A stretch of DNA of 35,471 bases from Saprospiraceae bacterium (lineage in GTDB: Bacteria > Bacteroidota > Bacteroidia > Chitinophagales > Saprospiraceae): positions 1 to 35,471 of the forward strand of contig JAHDBF010000016.1 in the NCBI GenBank assembly GCA_020630525.1, read 5' to 3'. This document shows, piece by piece, positions 19,980-30,776 of the stretch (positions within the stretch are counted from its first letter, which is position 1; each line of letters opens with the position of its first letter). The notes beneath the pieces were generated by a model, which made no database searches, was not told the DNA's origin, and saw nothing but the letters and a program-made list of their open reading frames with translations. The position numbers and the translations under genes were made by a program.

Positions 19980-20346
19980 AAGAATTAATAACCTGTCAGT
20001 ACGTGCATTAAAAAAGAAGTATGGAGATGTCCCTACACATTTCCTATTTTCTATTAAAACGCCTTTAGAATATCAATGCCCAATAATTGATCATAATATT
20101 GACAAGGTTGCTAATTGCAAAGACAAATTACACAAGGCTTTCAATGCAAAATCAATTGAATCTAAAAATGCTTTGATTTCAGCTGCATTATTTGCAATTT
20201 CTGATTTAGAAAAAAATCTTGATGAAGTGACTAGAAATAATTTTATCGAATTGAGAGAATATGCAAAAGAATGGAAAAAACTTGCAATAGAGGTGTTAGA
20301 TGCTTCTGGACATCCTGAAAAATTTGTAAAAATCAAATGGAGGTAA
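19957..20346 (+). CDS. Hypothetical protein between the DksA-like and MscS genes
   Basis: Long open frame overlapping both neighbours; alternative TTG start at 19966. Confidence 0.6.
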   Translation: MARKLGNRRINNLSVRALKKKYGDVPTHFLFSIKTPLEYQCPIIDHNIDKVANCKDKLHKAFNAKSIESKNALISAALFAISDLEKNLDEVTRNNFIELREYAKEWKKLAIEVLDASGHPEKFVKIKWR

Positions 20347-21098
20347 TCAATCAATATTTGGAAACGTATATAAACAATTCTTTCATCAGATTTTTGATGA
20401 TACTATTGTTGTTATATTTACTGCGTTCAGTAATTGTTAAGTGGTATCAGATATCCAAAAATAGAAGAACACCTGATAATTTTATTTTTGGAATAAATAA
20501 TGTATTTCAGGCGTTTCTTTTTTTCGTAATATTTATTTTTTTCTTTTCATTATTTGGTATTGATTTAAAAAGTTTAGCTACCTCATTAAGCATCGTCGCA
20601 GCAGCTTTAGTATTAATTTTTAAAGAATATATTTCTGATTTTCTTTTTGGTTTATACTTTGGTTTTGCTAAGGACTTTGAAATTGGAGATTACATTTATT
20701 CTAATGATATTAAGGGAAAAGTAGTTGAGTTAACTTTATTCAAGACGAAATTATTGAATGATGATGATGATCTAATATCTATACCAAACAGTAAAATTTT
20801 CAATAACGAAATTATAAATTACACAAAAAAGGATTCTCGCTTGCTTAGTATTGATTTCCAAATTTACATTAACAAAGTAAAAAGCATTGAACACCTAGAA
20901 ATCGAATTGGTTAAATCTCTTGAAGACTATTTTGAATTTTTGGTTCCTAATTCTTTTAACTTAAAAATAGTAAAGATGGAAAAAGATTCTATTGACCTAA
21001 AGTTTCAATATCAATTGAAAAAATTTGACCAAGATAAAATGAAACAAATAAGAAAAAAGACTGTTAGGTGCCTATTAAACAATATCAGTAAAACTTAA
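20337..21098 (+). CDS. MscS family small-conductance mechanosensitive channel
   Basis: TM3-like LATSLSIVAAALVLIFKEYISDFLFGLYFGFAKDFEIGDYI, beta domain KGKVVELTLFKTKLLNDDDDLISIPNSKIFNNEIINY. Confidence 0.85.
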   Translation: MEVINQYLETYINNSFIRFLMILLLLYLLRSVIVKWYQISKNRRTPDNFIFGINNVFQAFLFFVIFIFFFSLFGIDLKSLATSLSIVAAALVLIFKEYISDFLFGLYFGFAKDFEIGDYIYSNDIKGKVVELTLFKTKLLNDDDDLISIPNSKIFNNEIINYTKKDSRLLSIDFQIYINKVKSIEHLEIELVKSLEDYFEFLVPNSFNLKIVKMEKDSIDLKFQYQLKKFDQDKMKQIRKKTVRCLLNNISKT

Positions 21099-21171: not shown

Positions 21172-21215
21172 AGAAAAAGAAGAAGCTAGGCACACACCTT
21201 GGCTTCTTCTTGGAA
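21172..21215 (-). terminator. Candidate terminator for the minus-strand sigma operon
   Basis: AAGAAGAAGC (21177-21186) / GCTTCTTCTT (21202-21211), plus inner GG/CC; read on the minus strand it is followed by a T-rich pyrimidine tract (TTTCTTTTTCTTCTTC). Confidence 0.55.
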
Positions 21216-21225
21216 AACAACTCTC

Positions 21226-22659
21226 TTAAAGTTTATAACTCAATTTTAATTGCCCAGAAAAAACAATCGGATTGAAGCTATGTGTTTCTTTTGTCAAATT
21301 AGAAATAGTGTACTCAATTCCAGAGTGTAACCCCATCCATACACGTTGGGTTAAGTTATATTCTATTCCAAAATTAGTGGTGATTTGACTAGATATTTTT
21401 TTATAATTATTTGATTCCTCTATTGATATTACGTCATAATATTGAGGATCAATATTTTCTACTACAGTTTGTCCTTCATTCCCAAAATGATAGGTCAATT
21501 GAGTACCTAATCCATATGAGATTCCAATTTTTCTTGTGACATTATGAATTCTTGACACACTCATTGGCAATGACAATTGTTTATATTTATTGTATTTCAA
21601 TACTCTTGTATAAGCCACACCTTGGACATCAGAATCAATAGAATGAGAAGTAACGGTATGTGTTAATGTGTTAAGCAGTTCTACATTAACTTCTTGTACC
21701 ATACTAGTATCGCGTTCTTGTGTAAAATCAAATTTAGATTCTATATTTCTATAATGTAATCCTGTAGAAAAACTCCATTTCCCATTTACTACATAAGCTA
21801 TATTCAATCCTAAACCAATGCTTGGAAAACCAGTTTCTAAAATTGATTTAGTCTCAGCCAATTTGTTTCCATTAAAATTTGGCAACATATAACTGGTTGA
21901 TAAACCAAGAGAGGACATCCAGTAAGGATTTGTACCTTCTTTTGTCTCAATGATATAAAGGGGATCAATATTGGGAAACAATAATTGCGTTCTTTCAAAT
22001 ACTAGTAATTTACGAATAACCTCAATTGTAGTAATTTCATCAAGATCAGCAATTTTGGATTGAGTATTTGATAAGGGGATAATATGTGGAATTTCTTGAG
22101 TACTGTTTTCAATATTGACTTCAGCATAATCTGCTTCCAGATCATAAGTAGCATTGTTAATTCCTTCTGAAATCATATTATTCCTAACAGCACTATGGTA
22201 GTTTTCTGTTTTCTGTTCTTCTATCTTTTCTTGTTTATTTATTGAATTTGACACCTTTTCTATAGCATTATTTTTAAGGCTTTTTTCATTGTTATTGCTA
22301 CTTGATGATCTTCCTGATTTAGCATTAGAATCTGATTTATTATTAGATTCTATTGTTATTGGATCTATTGATTTTTTTACTTCGTCAAGAATTACTTTAA
22401 TGTTTTCATGATTTTCGGTAATCTTTTTTTCTAAATCGGCTAAGGAATTATTTTTCATTTTAAGGTTTGAAATCAAAAGTAACCCTGAGAAAACAAATAG
22501 AAGTATACCAATCCATATGAAGATTAATCCATATTTTCTTTTCTTATTATTTGGCTTTACGCCATGTAATATATCTTGCCCTACATTATCCCAAGACAAT
22601 GATTCTGGTAATTCTGAATTTGATCTTAATTTGTTTTTAAATTCATTTTTCTTATCCAT
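21226..22659 (-). CDS. Predicted dual-membrane-spanning anti-sigma-like protein: short cytoplasmic N-terminus, one TM helix, periplasmic linker, C-terminal outer-membrane beta-barrel
   Basis: No cleavable signal; TM at about residues 43-64 (YGLIFIWIGILLFVFSGLLLI), ~180 aa low-complexity linker, then alternating strands (MSSLGLSTSYML, PSIGLGLNIAYVVNGKWSFSTGLHYR, IGISYGLGTQLTYHFG, TNFGIEYNLTQRVWMGLHSGIEYTIS). Overlaps the sigma gene by 8 bp. Confidence 0.7.
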   Translation of the reverse strand: MDKKNEFKNKLRSNSELPESLSWDNVGQDILHGVKPNNKKRKYGLIFIWIGILLFVFSGLLLISNLKMKNNSLADLEKKITENHENIKVILDEVKKSIDPITIESNNKSDSNAKSGRSSSSNNNEKSLKNNAIEKVSNSINKQEKIEEQKTENYHSAVRNNMISEGINNATYDLEADYAEVNIENSTQEIPHIIPLSNTQSKIADLDEITTIEVIRKLLVFERTQLLFPNIDPLYIIETKEGTNPYWMSSLGLSTSYMLPNFNGNKLAETKSILETGFPSIGLGLNIAYVVNGKWSFSTGLHYRNIESKFDFTQERDTSMVQEVNVELLNTLTHTVTSHSIDSDVQGVAYTRVLKYNKYKQLSLPMSVSRIHNVTRKIGISYGLGTQLTYHFGNEGQTVVENIDPQYYDVISIEESNNYKKISSQITTNFGIEYNLTQRVWMGLHSGIEYTISNLTKETHSFNPIVFSGQLKLSYKL

Positions 22660-23203
22660 AATTAAATGATTTGGATGCTAACGAAAAATTATTTTTAATC
22701 CATTTCTTTCCACGCAATAGTTGCGATCTAGAAGTTTCTGGTTTTATGTTTAACAATTCTGCAATTTCTTTATGAGAATATTCGTCAATAACAAAGAGCA
22801 TAAAAATAGTTCGATACCCTTCTGGCATGGCTTTTAATCCATCCAATATTTCTTCTCTAGTTAAGTTTTCAAAATCAATTTCGTCAGTATAGTTTTCTAC
22901 ATCAGAAAAATCTTCTAACGGAATTAAATTCAATTTTGATGAATTTTTCCTTAGTTCTGAAATACATTTATTGATTGTAATTCTACGCATCCAGAACTTA
23001 ATATTCCCTTTACTTGGTTGATAGGATTCAAGAGATTTAAATATTTGAATAAAAACTTCTTGCATCATATCTTTCCTACTTTCCTTTTCAAAAATATAGC
23101 TACTTATTACCGCATAGATGTATGGAGCGCAAAGCTCATAGCACTGCTTATAAGCTTTGCGCTCTCCATTTATACATCGCTTTATTAATGAACTTTCTAT
23201 CAT
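22652..23203 (-). CDS. ECF (sigma-70 family) RNA polymerase sigma factor
   Basis: Region 2 KDMMQEVFIQIFKSLESYQPSKGNIKFWMRRITINKCISELRK; region 4 MPEGYRTIFMLFVIDEYSHKEIAELLNIKPETSRSQLLRGKKWIK. Confidence 0.9.
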   Translation of the reverse strand: MIESSLIKRCINGERKAYKQCYELCAPYIYAVISSYIFEKESRKDMMQEVFIQIFKSLESYQPSKGNIKFWMRRITINKCISELRKNSSKLNLIPLEDFSDVENYTDEIDFENLTREEILDGLKAMPEGYRTIFMLFVIDEYSHKEIAELLNIKPETSRSQLLRGKKWIKNNFSLASKSFNYG

Positions 23204-23209
23204 TAAAGA

Positions 23210-24502
23210 TTACTCACAACCATTCATCAATTCTGTCAATAACTCATTAGCATCGTCAAACTCTTCTACTGCTCCGCCATCTGTATACGTTACTGAAACT
23301 GGGTAAACCAAGCTGTAACTAGGATCAAAACTATATTCAATAATTGCCTCGTCTGAAGATACCGTCGCCGTATTTCCTTCATAGGTAACTAGCGTAATTG
23401 GGTAATTGATGTCGAAACAATTTTCAGCATAATCATCTGAAAGAAACGCTAGTATAATTAAATCGAAATTATCATTAAATTCCTCGCCTGGGCCCCAAAC
23501 ATCAATTGAATCCAAGCCTCCACCAGTCCATCCGCCATCACCAAAATCAAAACAATCAATCATTAGCTCTTCTAATTGATCTGAAGTTCCAACAACGTAA
23601 GTATTTCCTTCGTAGTCAGTTAAGGTAATTGGGTACACATAATCAACAACATCACCTTGCAACATTAAATTACATATGTCTTCATGGCTAGTAATTTCTA
23701 CAATAGAACCATCCGAAGTAGTTACGCTGAATGGAAACTCAATTTCATAACATCCTAATAGCTCAAAGTTATTTTCCCATTCCCAACCTAATCCATCAAA
23801 ACCTCCTCCATCATATCCTGAGGTATCAATATCACCAAAGCCATTACAATCGATCAAAGCTTCAAAAATATCATCAACATTTGCAACTGTAAGGGTATTT
23901 CCTTCTTCATCAATAAGTGTTAATGGAAACTGGAAAAAATACAAATCACTAGCGACTAATGCATTAAATGATTCCGCATCTTCTGCTGTGACAACGTTAC
24001 CTTCAATATCAGTTAATGCTACTGGGTAAACCAAATCCCAACAAGAATTATCGTAAGAAATATCATAGGCTGGAAAACTGTTTTCATCCCATCCACCAGT
24101 AGGAACACAAGAAGCGAATAGTTCTGCTAATTCATCACCATCTGCAACAGTAGAATCTTCTCCATCAAGGCTAACATTTAGAGGATAAACAAAATCTACT
24201 ACTTCTAATGTACCATCTTCAAAAGCTGCAGTTAAATCATCTTCACTTGCAATAACATATTCATTACCATCTATGTCGACCAAAGAAAATGGAAATGTAA
24301 TCAAGAAACAATCAAAATCCATTCCTTCTCCATCACTCCCAGAACTTCTTGATAATAGAGGATTATGATGAGCCATGTTATCTTCTTTCGGATCTTCCCA
24401 CTCTGTTTGATCTTGAATATTGACTTCTTCGTCTTTTGAACAAGAAGTAAAAATTAAACTTGCCATTAAGGCAATAAGAAAAATATTATTTAAAACTTTC
24501 AT
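23210..24502 (-). CDS. Repeat-containing, highly acidic predicted surface lipoprotein
   Basis: Lipobox MKVLNNIFLIALMASLIFTSC followed by SKDEE; eight divergent modules of the type [FY]P[FVLI]xLxDxEGNxxxVxxxDxLxxLxxxC; no K or R in residues 53-430. Confidence 0.8.
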   Translation of the reverse strand: MKVLNNIFLIALMASLIFTSCSKDEEVNIQDQTEWEDPKEDNMAHHNPLLSRSSGSDGEGMDFDCFLITFPFSLVDIDGNEYVIASEDDLTAAFEDGTLEVVDFVYPLNVSLDGEDSTVADGDELAELFASCVPTGGWDENSFPAYDISYDNSCWDLVYPVALTDIEGNVVTAEDAESFNALVASDLYFFQFPLTLIDEEGNTLTVANVDDIFEALIDCNGFGDIDTSGYDGGGFDGLGWEWENNFELLGCYEIEFPFSVTTSDGSIVEITSHEDICNLMLQGDVVDYVYPITLTDYEGNTYVVGTSDQLEELMIDCFDFGDGGWTGGGLDSIDVWGPGEEFNDNFDLIILAFLSDDYAENCFDINYPITLVTYEGNTATVSSDEAIIEYSFDPSYSLVYPVSVTYTDGGAVEEFDDANELLTELMNGCE

Positions 24503-24667
24503 TACACTTTTTTATAAATAGTAAAATAATTAGACGTCCTTTCATTCTACTATTCGCTTTCTATTTCAAATACGTTGCACGATAACAAAACTTTTTTTAA
24601 GATAGTAAATTTTAGCTTCAAACTGACAATTAAGATTCATATTAAAAGATAGTTGAGAAAATTCTTT

Positions 24668-24688: not shown

Positions 24689-25762
24689 ATGATGAAGTAT
24701 TTGGTATCAATAATTATCGTTGTTGCATTGTGTCAATCTAACATTGCGCAAAAAAGAGTAATTATTGAAAAATTTACTAATTCTCATTGTGGTGTTTGTC
24801 CTGGTGCAACCATTGATATTAAAAACATGGTAGCAGAAAATCCTGATCTATTTTGGATTAGTCATTACAAACCGAATACTTGGTATGAAAATCCATTAAA
24901 TAATGCAGAAAGTGTATTGTTGTATGACACTCTAAATGTGCCTGGTGTGCCAATGGCAATGATAAATAGAACTAGTGTAAACAATAAACCCTATTCTGGA
25001 GCTTCTAATTGGGAAACATTGATTGAGCAAGAAATAGAGAAACCGCATTTTGTAAATCTATCAATAGAAAATGTATCAATCAATCAACAATCTAGAGAAT
25101 TAAAATTTAGCGTTAATGCCAATTTTGAAACACTACCACCAGACAATGATTATAAAATTACAGCCATAATTGCTGAGGATTGGGTATATGGTGTTAAGCA
25201 AAGTAGCTACTTTAATGATGTAGAAGGACATCCATTAGAAGGTCTTGGTGATGAGATTTGGAGCTATGGACATAGACATGTTGTAAGAACTATACTAGAT
25301 GATATTTGGGGAACTGATAATTCCATTCCTGATGAAATCGAATTAAATACTGATTACATTCAAGAGTATAGTTATTCCGTACCAGAAGATTATAGATTGG
25401 AATTTATTGAGATTATATGTATGGTTTCCAAAAATGGAAGTACAAATTCGGACATCCAAGTCTTAAATGCTGCAGAAATAAAATTGAGTGAATTGAATAT
25501 ACTTTCGAGTAATGAAGAAAATATTGAACCATTGACATTTGACATTACACCAAACCCAGCTTCTACTTTCATAGAAATAAAGTTGGCTGAAGGCGTATCA
25601 TCACTATCCTTAATTGATGTGACTGGTCAAATAATTAAAACGATAACAGATCCAAATACTTTATATAAAATGGATATTTCTAACTTTCAATCTGGAATCT
25701 ATTATTTAAAAATTAATGATGGAATCCACACAAAAACAGAAGCATTATATATTACAAAATAA
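24689..25762 (+). CDS. Omp28-like/thioredoxin-fold secreted protein with T9SS type A sorting domain
   Basis: Signal peptide, RVIIEKFTNSHCGVCPGATIDI, C-terminal FDITPNPASTFIEIKL...GIYYLKINDGIHTKTEALYITK. Confidence 0.82.
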   Translation: MMKYLVSIIIVVALCQSNIAQKRVIIEKFTNSHCGVCPGATIDIKNMVAENPDLFWISHYKPNTWYENPLNNAESVLLYDTLNVPGVPMAMINRTSVNNKPYSGASNWETLIEQEIEKPHFVNLSIENVSINQQSRELKFSVNANFETLPPDNDYKITAIIAEDWVYGVKQSSYFNDVEGHPLEGLGDEIWSYGHRHVVRTILDDIWGTDNSIPDEIELNTDYIQEYSYSVPEDYRLEFIEIICMVSKNGSTNSDIQVLNAAEIKLSELNILSSNEENIEPLTFDITPNPASTFIEIKLAEGVSSLSLIDVTGQIIKTITDPNTLYKMDISNFQSGIYYLKINDGIHTKTEALYITK

Positions 25763-25794
25763 TTAAATATATTTTCAAAACCTTATTATAAATT

Positions 25795-27015
25795 ATGAGA
25801 ATTTACCACACATTAATTTCTAGCCTCTTTCTATTTTTAATAGCAAATATGGTGAAAGCACAGACTTGGGAGCAAGTGAGTTCACCACCAAATAATTTTT
25901 TTACAGATCATACCTTTGGTTTTGGTTTAGATGGTATGGGATATTTGGTAACAGGAACAGATTTAAATGGCAACATTAGTAACGACTTCTATCAGTACTC
26001 TCCTACTTCTGATTCTTGGACGCAATTGGATGATTTTCCAGGTGGAGCAAGAGGATATGCGATAGGTGATACATGGGATGGCAAAGCGTATTTTGGATTT
26101 GGACTAGGAAACGGATTAGCGTTTAATGACCTATGGGTTTTTGATCCAGCATTACAAACTTGGGAAAGGCTATCGGATTGTCCATGTGAAGCTAGGTTGC
26201 ATCCAGCTTTAGTTGCGCATAATAATAAAATATATATGGGTCTTGGTGGTGGAAATGGAAATTTAAAAGATTGGTGGATTTATGATATTATGACAGACAC
26301 TTGGAGTCAAGGGGCAGATTTACCAGCAGCGCCGAGACATCACCCATATCAGTTTGGAATTGGAGAATATGTTTATGCAGGATTTGGTCACGGAGATGGA
26401 ATTTTTAATGACTGGTATCAATATGATCCTCAAAATGACAGTTGGACAGAAGTTGCCTCATTACCTGCTGAAGGAAGAGTTGCTGGCACACAATTTTCTT
26501 ACAACGGAAAAGGATATGCGCTTAGTGGAGAGGGAGAATCTCATAGTGCAATGGATGAAGGAGAATTTTGGATGTATGATCCCATTTTAGATGAATGGAG
26601 TCAATTGCCTTCTCATCCAGGTACATCTCGATGGGCGCCTGCATCTTTTGTTATTGAAGATGAAGTATATTTATTCAACGGTACAAGATATTTACTTCCT
26701 TCAGGAAGCAATACGTATATACAGGAAGCTTTTAAATATGACCTAAACGCGACTATTTCTAACAACGAAGATTTCAATACAATAGAGAAAATCACTATTA
26801 GCCCAAATCCAACGACAGAATACGTCAATATAGAACTTCCTATAGAATGGGATATTCAAAATTTAACACTAAAAGTACTTAATTTAGAAGGAAAACTTTT
26901 ACTCAAATCAGTAGCAACAAATTCGATAAACATAAACGATTTATCGCAAGGTACTTATCTGCTAGAATGGGAATACCAAGGTAAAACCGATTCACAAATT
27001 ATTATCAAAAATTGA
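25795..27015 (+). CDS. Kelch-repeat secreted protein with T9SS type A sorting domain
   Basis: Repeated GKAYFGFG...NDLWVFDPALQTWERL / NDWYQYDPQNDSWTEVASLP kelch blades; C-terminal ITISPNPTTEYVNIELP...GTYLLEWEYQGKTDSQIIIKN. Confidence 0.88.
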   Translation: MRIYHTLISSLFLFLIANMVKAQTWEQVSSPPNNFFTDHTFGFGLDGMGYLVTGTDLNGNISNDFYQYSPTSDSWTQLDDFPGGARGYAIGDTWDGKAYFGFGLGNGLAFNDLWVFDPALQTWERLSDCPCEARLHPALVAHNNKIYMGLGGGNGNLKDWWIYDIMTDTWSQGADLPAAPRHHPYQFGIGEYVYAGFGHGDGIFNDWYQYDPQNDSWTEVASLPAEGRVAGTQFSYNGKGYALSGEGESHSAMDEGEFWMYDPILDEWSQLPSHPGTSRWAPASFVIEDEVYLFNGTRYLLPSGSNTYIQEAFKYDLNATISNNEDFNTIEKITISPNPTTEYVNIELPIEWDIQNLTLKVLNLEGKLLLKSVATNSININDLSQGTYLLEWEYQGKTDSQIIIKN

Positions 27016-28499: not shown

Positions 28500-30776
28500 T
28501 TATCTAATTAATGTTAAGTGTCCATTCTGATTTATAGATTTTCCTCTAGGACTTACATAGCTTAACTGATAGACGTATACGCCTTTGGGTGATTGGATTC
28601 CAGTATTTTGTTTAGTGCCATTCCACCCTATCAATGGATCGTTTGTTTCATAGACCATTTCTCCCCAGCGATTCCAAATCCTCATCGAAAATTCTTGAAC
28701 ACCAGAAACAAAACCTCTCCCTATGAAAGTATCATTTTCTCCATCACCGTTTGGACTAAACGCATTCGGCATAAAGTAATCAACGAGTGGTTTTACATCT
28801 ATTTGTTGAGTTAAGGTATCAGTGCAGCCACTTTCATGAAATGCAACTAAGGTTACATCTTGGAATCCTGTGTCGACAAAGGTATACACTGGATTCTCCT
28901 GTAAGCTTATAAATTCATCATTAAAGTTCCATTGATATCCAATTGCCAATTCTGATAGATTTGAAAAGCTTACTTCATTATTAAAAATATCGGGATCTTC
29001 AGGATTATATGTGAAGTCTGCTAAGGGTTTTTCTAATACTGTAATCCAATCTATAAAAGTACGATCTACTTCACAGCTATTAGGAGAAACAATTGATACA
29101 GAAACGGTGTAATTTCCTATTTCTTCATAAACATGCGTAGGGCTTATATCATTAGAAAAATTTCCATCGCCAAAATCCCAAGTAATTAGATATTCTTCAT
29201 TAATTGGGGAGGATAAATTATTAAAAAAAACTTCACCACCCTCACAGGAAATAAACCTAGTGGGTTCAGTAACAATGAGAGGTGGTACTGGATACCAATT
29301 AATGATTTGCTCTATTGAATCTTTACATTCATTCACATCAGTTACCGTTAAAGTGACTGGTATATTTCCTGGATCAGAAAACAAATGATTTACATCTGTA
29401 TCTATTGAGAAAATCTCTGATTCATCTCTCCAACTCCAATCCGTAATTCCACCGGCAGCACCAGTTACACTTTCGTCAATAAAGGATACTGGTCCGGCAA
29501 CACAAGTATCATATGTAAAACTAAAATCTGCATCAATTGCTGGAAATACATCTACTGCAATATTGGCTGTATCAGCACAAGATGTGCCTTTATTTAATAT
29601 CATGTGACCGTAATATGTCCCGAGTCCAGGAAATGCTACAGTTGCATCTCTAGTATCAATAAAGGTGGTATCTCCACCAATATCAAAAGCCCATTCATAA
29701 GAGACAATATTGTCAATATTTGTGCTTAGGTTATTAAACGTTACAATATTTGCACCACAAGATTTTACGAAAAAGTCTACAAAATCAATGTTTGACTCTG
29801 ATTCTATATCTGCAAATACCAATGGCGTACACAACACTACGTTAAACTGAAAATCTCTTCTTGTCTCTCCCAATAAAATTCCATTTCTAAATTCTTGAAC
29901 ACATACACCTACTACAAATTGTCCTTGCATTGTTGGGCTTCCAGAAATTAGTCCAGTTTGAGGGTTTATGGTTATCAATGGATTTCCTGCCATCGGAGCG
30001 GTAGGTGTATAGGGACCAGAAAAAGTAACATTATCAAAAGGAGGTCTACAGTTTTCCGGGTTTGGTCTTACTCCATTACAAGATTCAGCATCACCCACAC
30101 CACCAACTCCTTCCTGCCCACCTGCTGTTTTGGGTGCGCAAAAGCTATATATCAGTTCATCACCTTCGGAATCTGTCGCTGAATGATCAAAATTAATGTC
30201 TTGATCTGCACAGATAAAAATGGGCGGAAAATTATTAAACGATGGACTATTATTACATTGGATTTGTGCTTCAGGCGTAATTTCTACTGAGAATGCCGCA
30301 CCATTGTCTCCAGGGTTTAGTAGATTCGTTATAGTCTCGTTTCTACAGCACCGCTGGTAAGTAATCATGTAATTCTGATTGATGATCGGTAGCGTAATGG
30401 TAAACTCGTAAATGCCTCTTTCTACACCAACTCCAGATGGAATCTCAACACAAGGATTACTAGTATCAAAGCCAACCTCTGATATACCCGTAGCTGGAAC
30501 ATTCTGAATCAATCTTACAAAATTCCAATTCTGTCCAGATCCCGAATAAATTCCAAATCTTGAAGCGGGTGTATTGTTAAATGGGTCTCCATCAAATGGT
30601 GCTCCTCCGCTTTGAGAATCTCTATATAAGGTAAACCTAACCCTAAATTCAACCGTATTATTTGCTGTATTTACTGATAAACATCGATACTCTACATCAC
30701 CACCAACAATATGTCTAGCTTCGCTAATAAGGCTATGAAAAAAAATAATTATACCTATGGCAATGATTCGCTTCAT
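28500..30776 (-). CDS. PKD-domain secreted protein with T9SS type B (gliding-motility-associated CHU_C) C-terminus
   Basis: Several PKD-like motifs (YLITWDFGDGNFSNDISPTHVYEEIGNYTVSV; GYQWNFNDEF), C-terminal MPNAFSPNGDGENDTFIGRG...MRIWNRWGEMVYETND...KGVYVYQLSYVSPRGKSINQNGHLTLIR. Confidence 0.9.
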   Translation of the reverse strand: MKRIIAIGIIIFFHSLISEARHIVGGDVEYRCLSVNTANNTVEFRVRFTLYRDSQSGGAPFDGDPFNNTPASRFGIYSGSGQNWNFVRLIQNVPATGISEVGFDTSNPCVEIPSGVGVERGIYEFTITLPIINQNYMITYQRCCRNETITNLLNPGDNGAAFSVEITPEAQIQCNNSPSFNNFPPIFICADQDINFDHSATDSEGDELIYSFCAPKTAGGQEGVGGVGDAESCNGVRPNPENCRPPFDNVTFSGPYTPTAPMAGNPLITINPQTGLISGSPTMQGQFVVGVCVQEFRNGILLGETRRDFQFNVVLCTPLVFADIESESNIDFVDFFVKSCGANIVTFNNLSTNIDNIVSYEWAFDIGGDTTFIDTRDATVAFPGLGTYYGHMILNKGTSCADTANIAVDVFPAIDADFSFTYDTCVAGPVSFIDESVTGAAGGITDWSWRDESEIFSIDTDVNHLFSDPGNIPVTLTVTDVNECKDSIEQIINWYPVPPLIVTEPTRFISCEGGEVFFNNLSSPINEEYLITWDFGDGNFSNDISPTHVYEEIGNYTVSVSIVSPNSCEVDRTFIDWITVLEKPLADFTYNPEDPDIFNNEVSFSNLSELAIGYQWNFNDEFISLQENPVYTFVDTGFQDVTLVAFHESGCTDTLTQQIDVKPLVDYFMPNAFSPNGDGENDTFIGRGFVSGVQEFSMRIWNRWGEMVYETNDPLIGWNGTKQNTGIQSPKGVYVYQLSYVSPRGKSINQNGHLTLIR

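Follow-up and report, generated by a model that had tools for sequence, protein, structure and literature searches.

A three-gene operon of a Saprospiraceae bacterium bears on the signal and the purpose of Dma systems. The operon lies in a 35,471-nt stretch of DNA (the window, by which we mean the whole stretch that was analysed) from a 3.46-Mb draft genome. It encodes a predicted surface lipoprotein, an ECF sigma factor and a Dma-like protein that would span both membranes. The locus raises the question of whether the lipoprotein is the input of such a system or its output. A sequence-only reading of the window had cast the lipoprotein mainly as something that serves the outer-membrane barrel as ligand, sensor or cap. 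The analysis below points instead to output: this is probably a self-contained Dma-type operon, autoregulated through its trans-envelope sigma system, in which the surface lipoprotein is the response and not the receptor.

Gene order and flanking elements

The three genes follow one another on the minus strand: the lipoprotein gene (gene 1; 23210..24502; 430 aa, with four Cys-bracketed modules), the ECF sigma gene (gene 2; 22652..23203; 183 aa) and gene 3 (21226..22659; 477 aa), a candidate Dma-like dual-membrane anti-sigma factor. Genes 1 and 2 are separated by 6 nt, and genes 2 and 3 overlap by 8 nt. The co-directional arrangement, the spacings and the domain boundaries given by the sequence-only reading are all borne out. 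A hairpin with a U-rich tail sits 3' of gene 3 (21177..21211, minus strand; -16.9 kcal/mol, z -3.35) and is a candidate operon terminator; it was absent from the list produced by a simple terminator scan. Inspection of the ORFs and Pfam matches found no FecR or STN-TonB receptor gene in the window operon, and a plasmid search returned no match. The genome has two more Dma-like genes next to ECF sigma genes, at other sites.

Genes 2 and 3: an ECF sigma factor and its Dma-like neighbour

Gene 2 is, on its domain matches, an ordinary ECF sigma factor, as had been proposed: Sigma70_r2 was matched at 2.1e-12 and Sigma70_r4_2 at 2e-14 (Pfam), and TIGR02937 (sigma70-ECF) at 7.7e-24 (NCBIfam). When 69 sigma factors were placed in a tree, a branch with support 99 parted the 20 Dma-linked ones, the window's included, from the 49 FecR-linked (FecI-type) ones.

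Gene 3 begins with a hydrophilic cytoplasmic segment (residues 1-42; 22534..22659, minus strand), which carries the motif LPESLSWDNVGQDIL (LPxxxxWxxMxxGI) at residues 17-31. P18, W23 and I30 were invariant in 12 homologues; in a second alignment P18 and W23 were again invariant and I30 nearly so. These conserved residues mark the segment as a candidate for sigma binding, and it is through this N-terminus that gene 3 would hold its sigma factor. The segment is followed by an inner-membrane helix (residues 43-64; 22468..22533, minus strand), where the hydropathy peak, a 19-residue window starting at residue 45, scored 2.92 with KKRK just before it, and where AlphaFold2 modelled a helix over residues 43-96. 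A periplasmic tether (residues 65-245; 21925..22467, minus strand) is predicted to be disordered, with pLDDT below 50 over residues 64-242. The remainder (residues 246-477; 21229..21924, minus strand) is predicted to form an eight-strand, OmpA-like outer-membrane barrel, with block pLDDT mostly 81-96. For AlphaFold2, the window's gene 3 was aligned with its counterparts at the named MAG loci described below, 12 sequences in all.

Comparison of the barrel model with the PDB using Foldseek gave 95 matches at E <0.001; the OmpA match had a TM-score of 0.72 on the target, and further matches were Ail, NspA and OmpW. The Pfam match to OMP_b-brl_2 was weak (E 9.5e-4, under the cut-off), and no Pfam or NCBIfam family was matched above its curated cut-off. 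A single-sequence scan of the genome contigs with gene 3 returned no relative. Searching the phylum with a profile brought up homologues from several families; none was identified as Bacteroides.

The cytoplasmic N-terminus, TM helix at ~43-64, linker and barrel expected from the letters alone were thus recovered by hydropathy, AlphaFold2 and the OmpA fold match, and the structure prediction yielded both the eight-strand barrel and the helix. The same architecture supports the Dma-like character that had been claimed for gene 3. It has in common with the Dma proteins of B. thetaiotaomicron (PMC13088901) a cytoplasmic N-terminus, a TM helix, a long disordered tether, a C-terminal barrel and an adjacent ECF sigma gene, a likeness at the level of domain order and predicted barrel. 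Genes 2 and 3 are thus a Dma-like pair, of a known kind.

The lipoprotein belongs to a family of Cys-bracketed modules

In the surface-lipoprotein (LES) test, gene 1 showed a lipobox followed by C21-S-K-D-E-E (24425..24442, minus strand), with Cys21 as the predicted lipidated residue. As the sequence-only reading had noticed, these residues resemble the Capnocytophaga-type signal; they fit C-X-K-(D/E)2-X, the optimal surface-export signal in Capnocytophaga canimorsus (PMC5080379). An acidic export signal was present in 71 of the 96 collected members of the lipoprotein family, compared to 37 of 106 other lipoproteins. This suggests that the gene 1 product would be located on the cell surface.

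The Cys pairs, the structure model and a module profile delimit four modules on the minus strand: C65-C132 (module 1; 24107..24310), C154-C219 (module 2; 23846..24043), C251-C317 (module 3; 23552..23752) and C362-C429 (module 4; 23216..23419). The Cys spacing is 65-67, and each module, of ~67 residues, consists of two [Y/F]P...G...E-L half-repeats predicted to be beta-beta-beta-alpha. A 68-residue module profile matched all 96 family members, with one to six module matches apiece, and some members are extremely acidic between modules.

The structure model of gene 1 is of modest confidence (pLDDT 67.8, pTM 0.32). PDB sequence and fold searches found nothing significant (no fold match at E <0.001), and we therefore claim no fold family. 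Gene 1 matched no Pfam or NCBIfam family, including NigD, and was related neither to SusD nor to any other known binder. A few half-module stretches match the PB1 domain or YPDG/Rib-type surface repeats, which we take as no more than a resemblance: the matches are weak or short and mostly under curated cut-offs (PB1 reached 2.9e-6 at best, in a single member, and YPDG_rpt 5.3e-6, in two members). The lipoprotein had been singled out as the potentially undescribed part of the operon, and indeed no Pfam, NCBIfam or PDB family accounts for it. While its export signal is of the Capnocytophaga type, its module family lies outside these known families and appears to be undescribed in Pfam, NCBIfam and the sources searched.

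The lipoprotein family adjoins two kinds of sigma system

Of 299 genomes of the order, 66 yielded the lipoprotein family in genome-wide searches, as did 23 of the 297 genomes in a phylum sample; it recurs both within Saprospiraceae and in further families of that class. A separate scan of named Saprospiraceae MAGs, with four close lipoproteins as queries, gave 12 loci, one of which is cut by a contig end and some of which come from genome records that the first survey also covered. The order lipoprotein, ECF sigma factor, Dma-like gene was found in all 11 complete loci, and in the triplet homologues the Dma-like gene overlaps or abuts the sigma gene. The triplet is therefore conserved beyond what coincidence would give, and the pairing of gene 3 with the sigma factor is likewise supported.

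ECF envelope-signalling genes adjoined the lipoprotein gene in 72 of 96 loci, 20 of them Dma-type and 52 FecI-FecR-STN/TonB-receptor type. Neighbourhoods were labelled with profiles and loci were chosen by search rank, so these are sample counts and not frequencies. The other 24 loci were without adjacent sigma linkage, eight of them at contig ends. As a control, about 4 of 97 other ORFs in the same loci had an unrelated ECF gene no more than three genes away. The lipoprotein gene was divergent from the sigma/receptor operon in 46 of the 52 FecIR-linked loci, and it lay downstream of the Dma gene in four loci (L123, L125, L145 and L160).

Dma-linked members did not form one clade in a full-length lipoprotein tree. 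The tree required seven changes, four of them forced by starred branches; it is a quick tree, limited by the repeats, and the non-clade claim rests on these four. This suggests that the lipoprotein may have been re-wired repeatedly between sigma systems. Dma-like operons without this lipoprotein family, for their part, often adjoin another lipoprotein (L040, L042, L054, L259, L261, L262, L264-L266, L268, L271 and L272).

A candidate promoter directly precedes the lipoprotein gene

Gibbs sampling of 20 triplet upstream regions yielded the motif RTGCAACG, 15-17 nt, nAATA/nCATA, placed mostly 44-69 nt from the ATG and surrounded by dissimilar flanks. It resembles an ECF promoter and can be condensed to RTGCAACG-N16/17-nAATA. 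In the window, the -35-like element TGCAACG (24573..24579, minus strand) is followed 18 nt further on by the -10-like element (c)(g/t)AATA (24551..24554, minus strand), ~48-49 nt before the lipoprotein ATG. The core TGCA[A/T/G/C]C was similarly placed in all 20 regions except that of L118, where it lies further upstream; TGCA[AGT]C was absent upstream in L145, L160, L187 and L194.

The full motif occurred once in the window (24579-24551; expected 0.09). The window's genome contained ten exact matches, nine inside ORFs and the sole intergenic one at this promoter, in a search by exact pattern that can miss degenerate sites. The matches inside ORFs were set aside as chance (10 matches compared to 7 in a reversed control). 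In eight other genomes, a slightly different pattern gave 23 matches; each of the eight had one of these ahead of its lipoprotein gene, and only three other copies were correctly placed. One of the three heads a second Dma operon, the first gene of which encodes an unrelated 199-aa lipoprotein. Sigma-70 consensus promoter scans of the region were near shuffle level (27 compared to 19.4, sd 4.4) and were not used.

Outside the triplets, TGCA[AGT]C was found within 200 nt upstream of 5 of 52 FecIR-linked and 4 of 24 unlinked lipoprotein genes. The FecIR-linked genes carried other upstream motifs, GGTAGGG-N14-GTTGTYT (information 14.0 compared to 9.3 in shuffled sequence) and GGTAGGGTAAA or GAGTACA (12.9 compared to 9.4). 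No motif rose above the shuffles upstream of the unlinked genes (10.5 compared to 9.6). On the simplest reading of these motifs, the neighbouring sigma factor drives transcription of each lipoprotein gene, and the linkage in the triplets suggests that the TGCAACG promoter may be recognised by the gene 2 sigma factor.

The lipoprotein is probably the response

We propose that the cytoplasmic N-terminus of gene 3 would hold the sigma factor inactive, while the protein, anchored in the inner membrane, would reach its own OmpA-like outer-membrane barrel through the predicted disordered tether. By analogy with the Dma and Reo literature, outer-membrane damage or a ligand bound at the barrel would release the sigma factor. 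Once free, it would read the TGCAACG promoter, and lipoprotein, sigma factor and anti-sigma factor would be made together. The surface lipoprotein would then be the main, perhaps the only, non-regulatory product, which would make it a response and not a receptor; it probably coats, protects or binds something on the cell surface. In other lineages the same family would answer to FecI-FecR-TonB-receptor systems, from promoters particular to each. Since the operon has one apparent sigma-dependent product, only one lipoprotein and one promoter need to be explained, and the problem is directly testable.

The case for output rests on the promoter directly before the lipoprotein gene, on the unrelated lipoproteins that fill the same slot, and on the FecIR pairing behind different promoters. 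Related systems behave in a similar manner: dma2 deletion induces its operon neighbours by up to 6 log2 units, BT_1557 by 6.0 log2 (PMC13088901), and EcfO-Reo controls NigD surface lipoproteins (PMC13114119). These same three lines of evidence fit poorly with the sequence-only reading, under which the lipoprotein would sit on the gene 3 barrel as surface ligand, sensor or cap and gate the sigma factor by its presence or loss. Such an input role would agree with the shared operon, the surface-export signal and the strict conserved order, as well as with the occurrence of the family beside two barrel-based transducers, Dma and the STN-TonB receptor. Lipoprotein and barrel also co-vary beyond what the sigma factor accounts for, although weakly (partial r 0.20, permutation p 0.046). 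However, the position of the promoter marks the lipoprotein as a likely sigma target, and the conserved barrel hairpin region SKFDF..HYNK is common to Dma relatives that have other lipoprotein partners. We therefore regard an input role as unlikely. Lipoprotein and barrel may touch directly, which would leave room for a sensor or cap role, but output does not require it.

Contact would be needed if the lipoprotein were output and feedback at once, made by the sigma factor and then binding the barrel to reset the switch, in Dma and FecIR-TonB systems alike. The promoter evidence combined with the repeated pairing to two barrel machines speaks for this arrangement. Many family members, however, are not linked to any barrel transducer, and the contact itself is conjectural, which leaves feedback doubtful. 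We would hold with similarly little confidence the broader proposal that Cys-module lipoproteins are a mobile surface-response part, repeatedly wired in evolution to two unrelated sigma switches that run from outer membrane to nucleoid, the one-piece Dma and the three-piece FecIR/TonB systems, and that this part both executes the response and binds the barrels to reset them.

The 52 of 96 members that adjoin an STN-TonB receptor, and the extreme acidity of some members between modules, could also indicate a SusD-like transport or binding partner. Such a protein would supply the TonB receptor with a captured substrate, for example a metal ion, and would act alone in Dma loci. This is quite improbable given that the Dma loci are without a TonB receptor, that in most receptor-linked loci (46/52) the lipoprotein gene and the receptor operon diverge, and that gene 1 is unrelated to SusD or other known binders. 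The reading of gene 3 as an ordinary protein of the outer membrane, or a structural one, in a coincidental neighbourhood would suit its want of a family above any curated cut-off, but it is very hard to reconcile with the conserved triplet, the N-terminal motif, the order TM helix, tether and barrel, and a gene that overlaps or abuts the sigma gene.

Comparison with known systems

The Saprospiraceae operon differs from its counterpart in B. thetaiotaomicron in being led by a Cys-module lipoprotein and not by BT_1557 (DUF4943), and the Dma2 operon is reported only from that species and close relatives. In B. thetaiotaomicron nigD1 is unlinked, whereas the Saprospiraceae lipoprotein is operon-borne. 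EcfO-Reo of Bacteroides fragilis and Phocaeicola vulgatus likewise has an anti-sigma factor that extends from the cytoplasm to the surface and sigma-dependent NigD surface lipoproteins (PMC13114119). Its NigD regulon comprises three paralogues, in contrast to the one operon-borne lipoprotein here, which has no NigD match in Pfam. In the sources searched, neither the proposed, promoter-based output role of the lipoprotein nor its occurrence in two sigma/anti-sigma architectures appears to have been described.

The lipoprotein family is also at home beside FecI-FecR-FecA systems with STN-TonB receptors, at 52 loci. There the anti-sigma factor and the barrel are separate proteins, the sigma factor belongs to another clade and the promoter motifs differ; no such system lies beside the window operon. 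The lipoprotein family connects two sigma/anti-sigma architectures hitherto studied apart from each other, and its presence in both suggests that they serve a common surface task.

At locus L040 (7686-10325), genes for a 199-aa lipoprotein, an ECF sigma factor and a Dma-like candidate anti-sigma factor form an operon that starts with the TGCAACG promoter, as does the window operon. The L040 lipoprotein is unrelated to that of the window. Since an unrelated lipoprotein lies behind the same promoter, the lipoprotein of such Dma operons seems, from these sequences, to be exchangeable.

The window genome carries a second Dma-like operon on contig C54 (L259, 5390-9109), which encodes a lipoprotein, an ECF sigma factor and a Dma-like protein. 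This lipoprotein (585 aa, C-Q-K-D-R-E) belongs to a family other than that of the window lipoprotein, and the TGCAACG promoter is absent from the operon. A third ECF and Dma-like pair, on contig C154 (L260, 3811-5654), has no adjoining lipoprotein gene.

Lipoprotein modules were also found fused to other domains. At L187 (8069-9367) and L194 (7127-8443), fusion genes adjoining ECF and diverged Dma-like genes encode a single module and, at the C-terminus, a domain that carries the motifs WGC and WSST and matched Lcl_C in one scanned member. At L123 (7348-8928) and L125 (1-1100), downstream of a diverged Dma-like gene, modules are joined to an N-terminal region resembling DUF4382, with a match in one member.

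Among the module-lipoprotein loci linked to FecI-FecR-STN/TonB receptor genes, one subclass (L136, L138, L139, L146, L155, L164-L166, L169, L173 and L174) has an extra 150-165-aa gene between fecI and fecR, usually with a lipobox. In most of these loci, a GAGTACA element lies upstream of the module lipoprotein.

Around the window operon are several type IX secretion cargo genes (405-1925, 24689-27015 and 28500-30776); their products have Por_Secre_tail or CHU_C tails and comprise Omp28, kelch and PKD proteins. A gene for an MscS-like mechanosensitive channel (20337-21098) is convergent with the operon.
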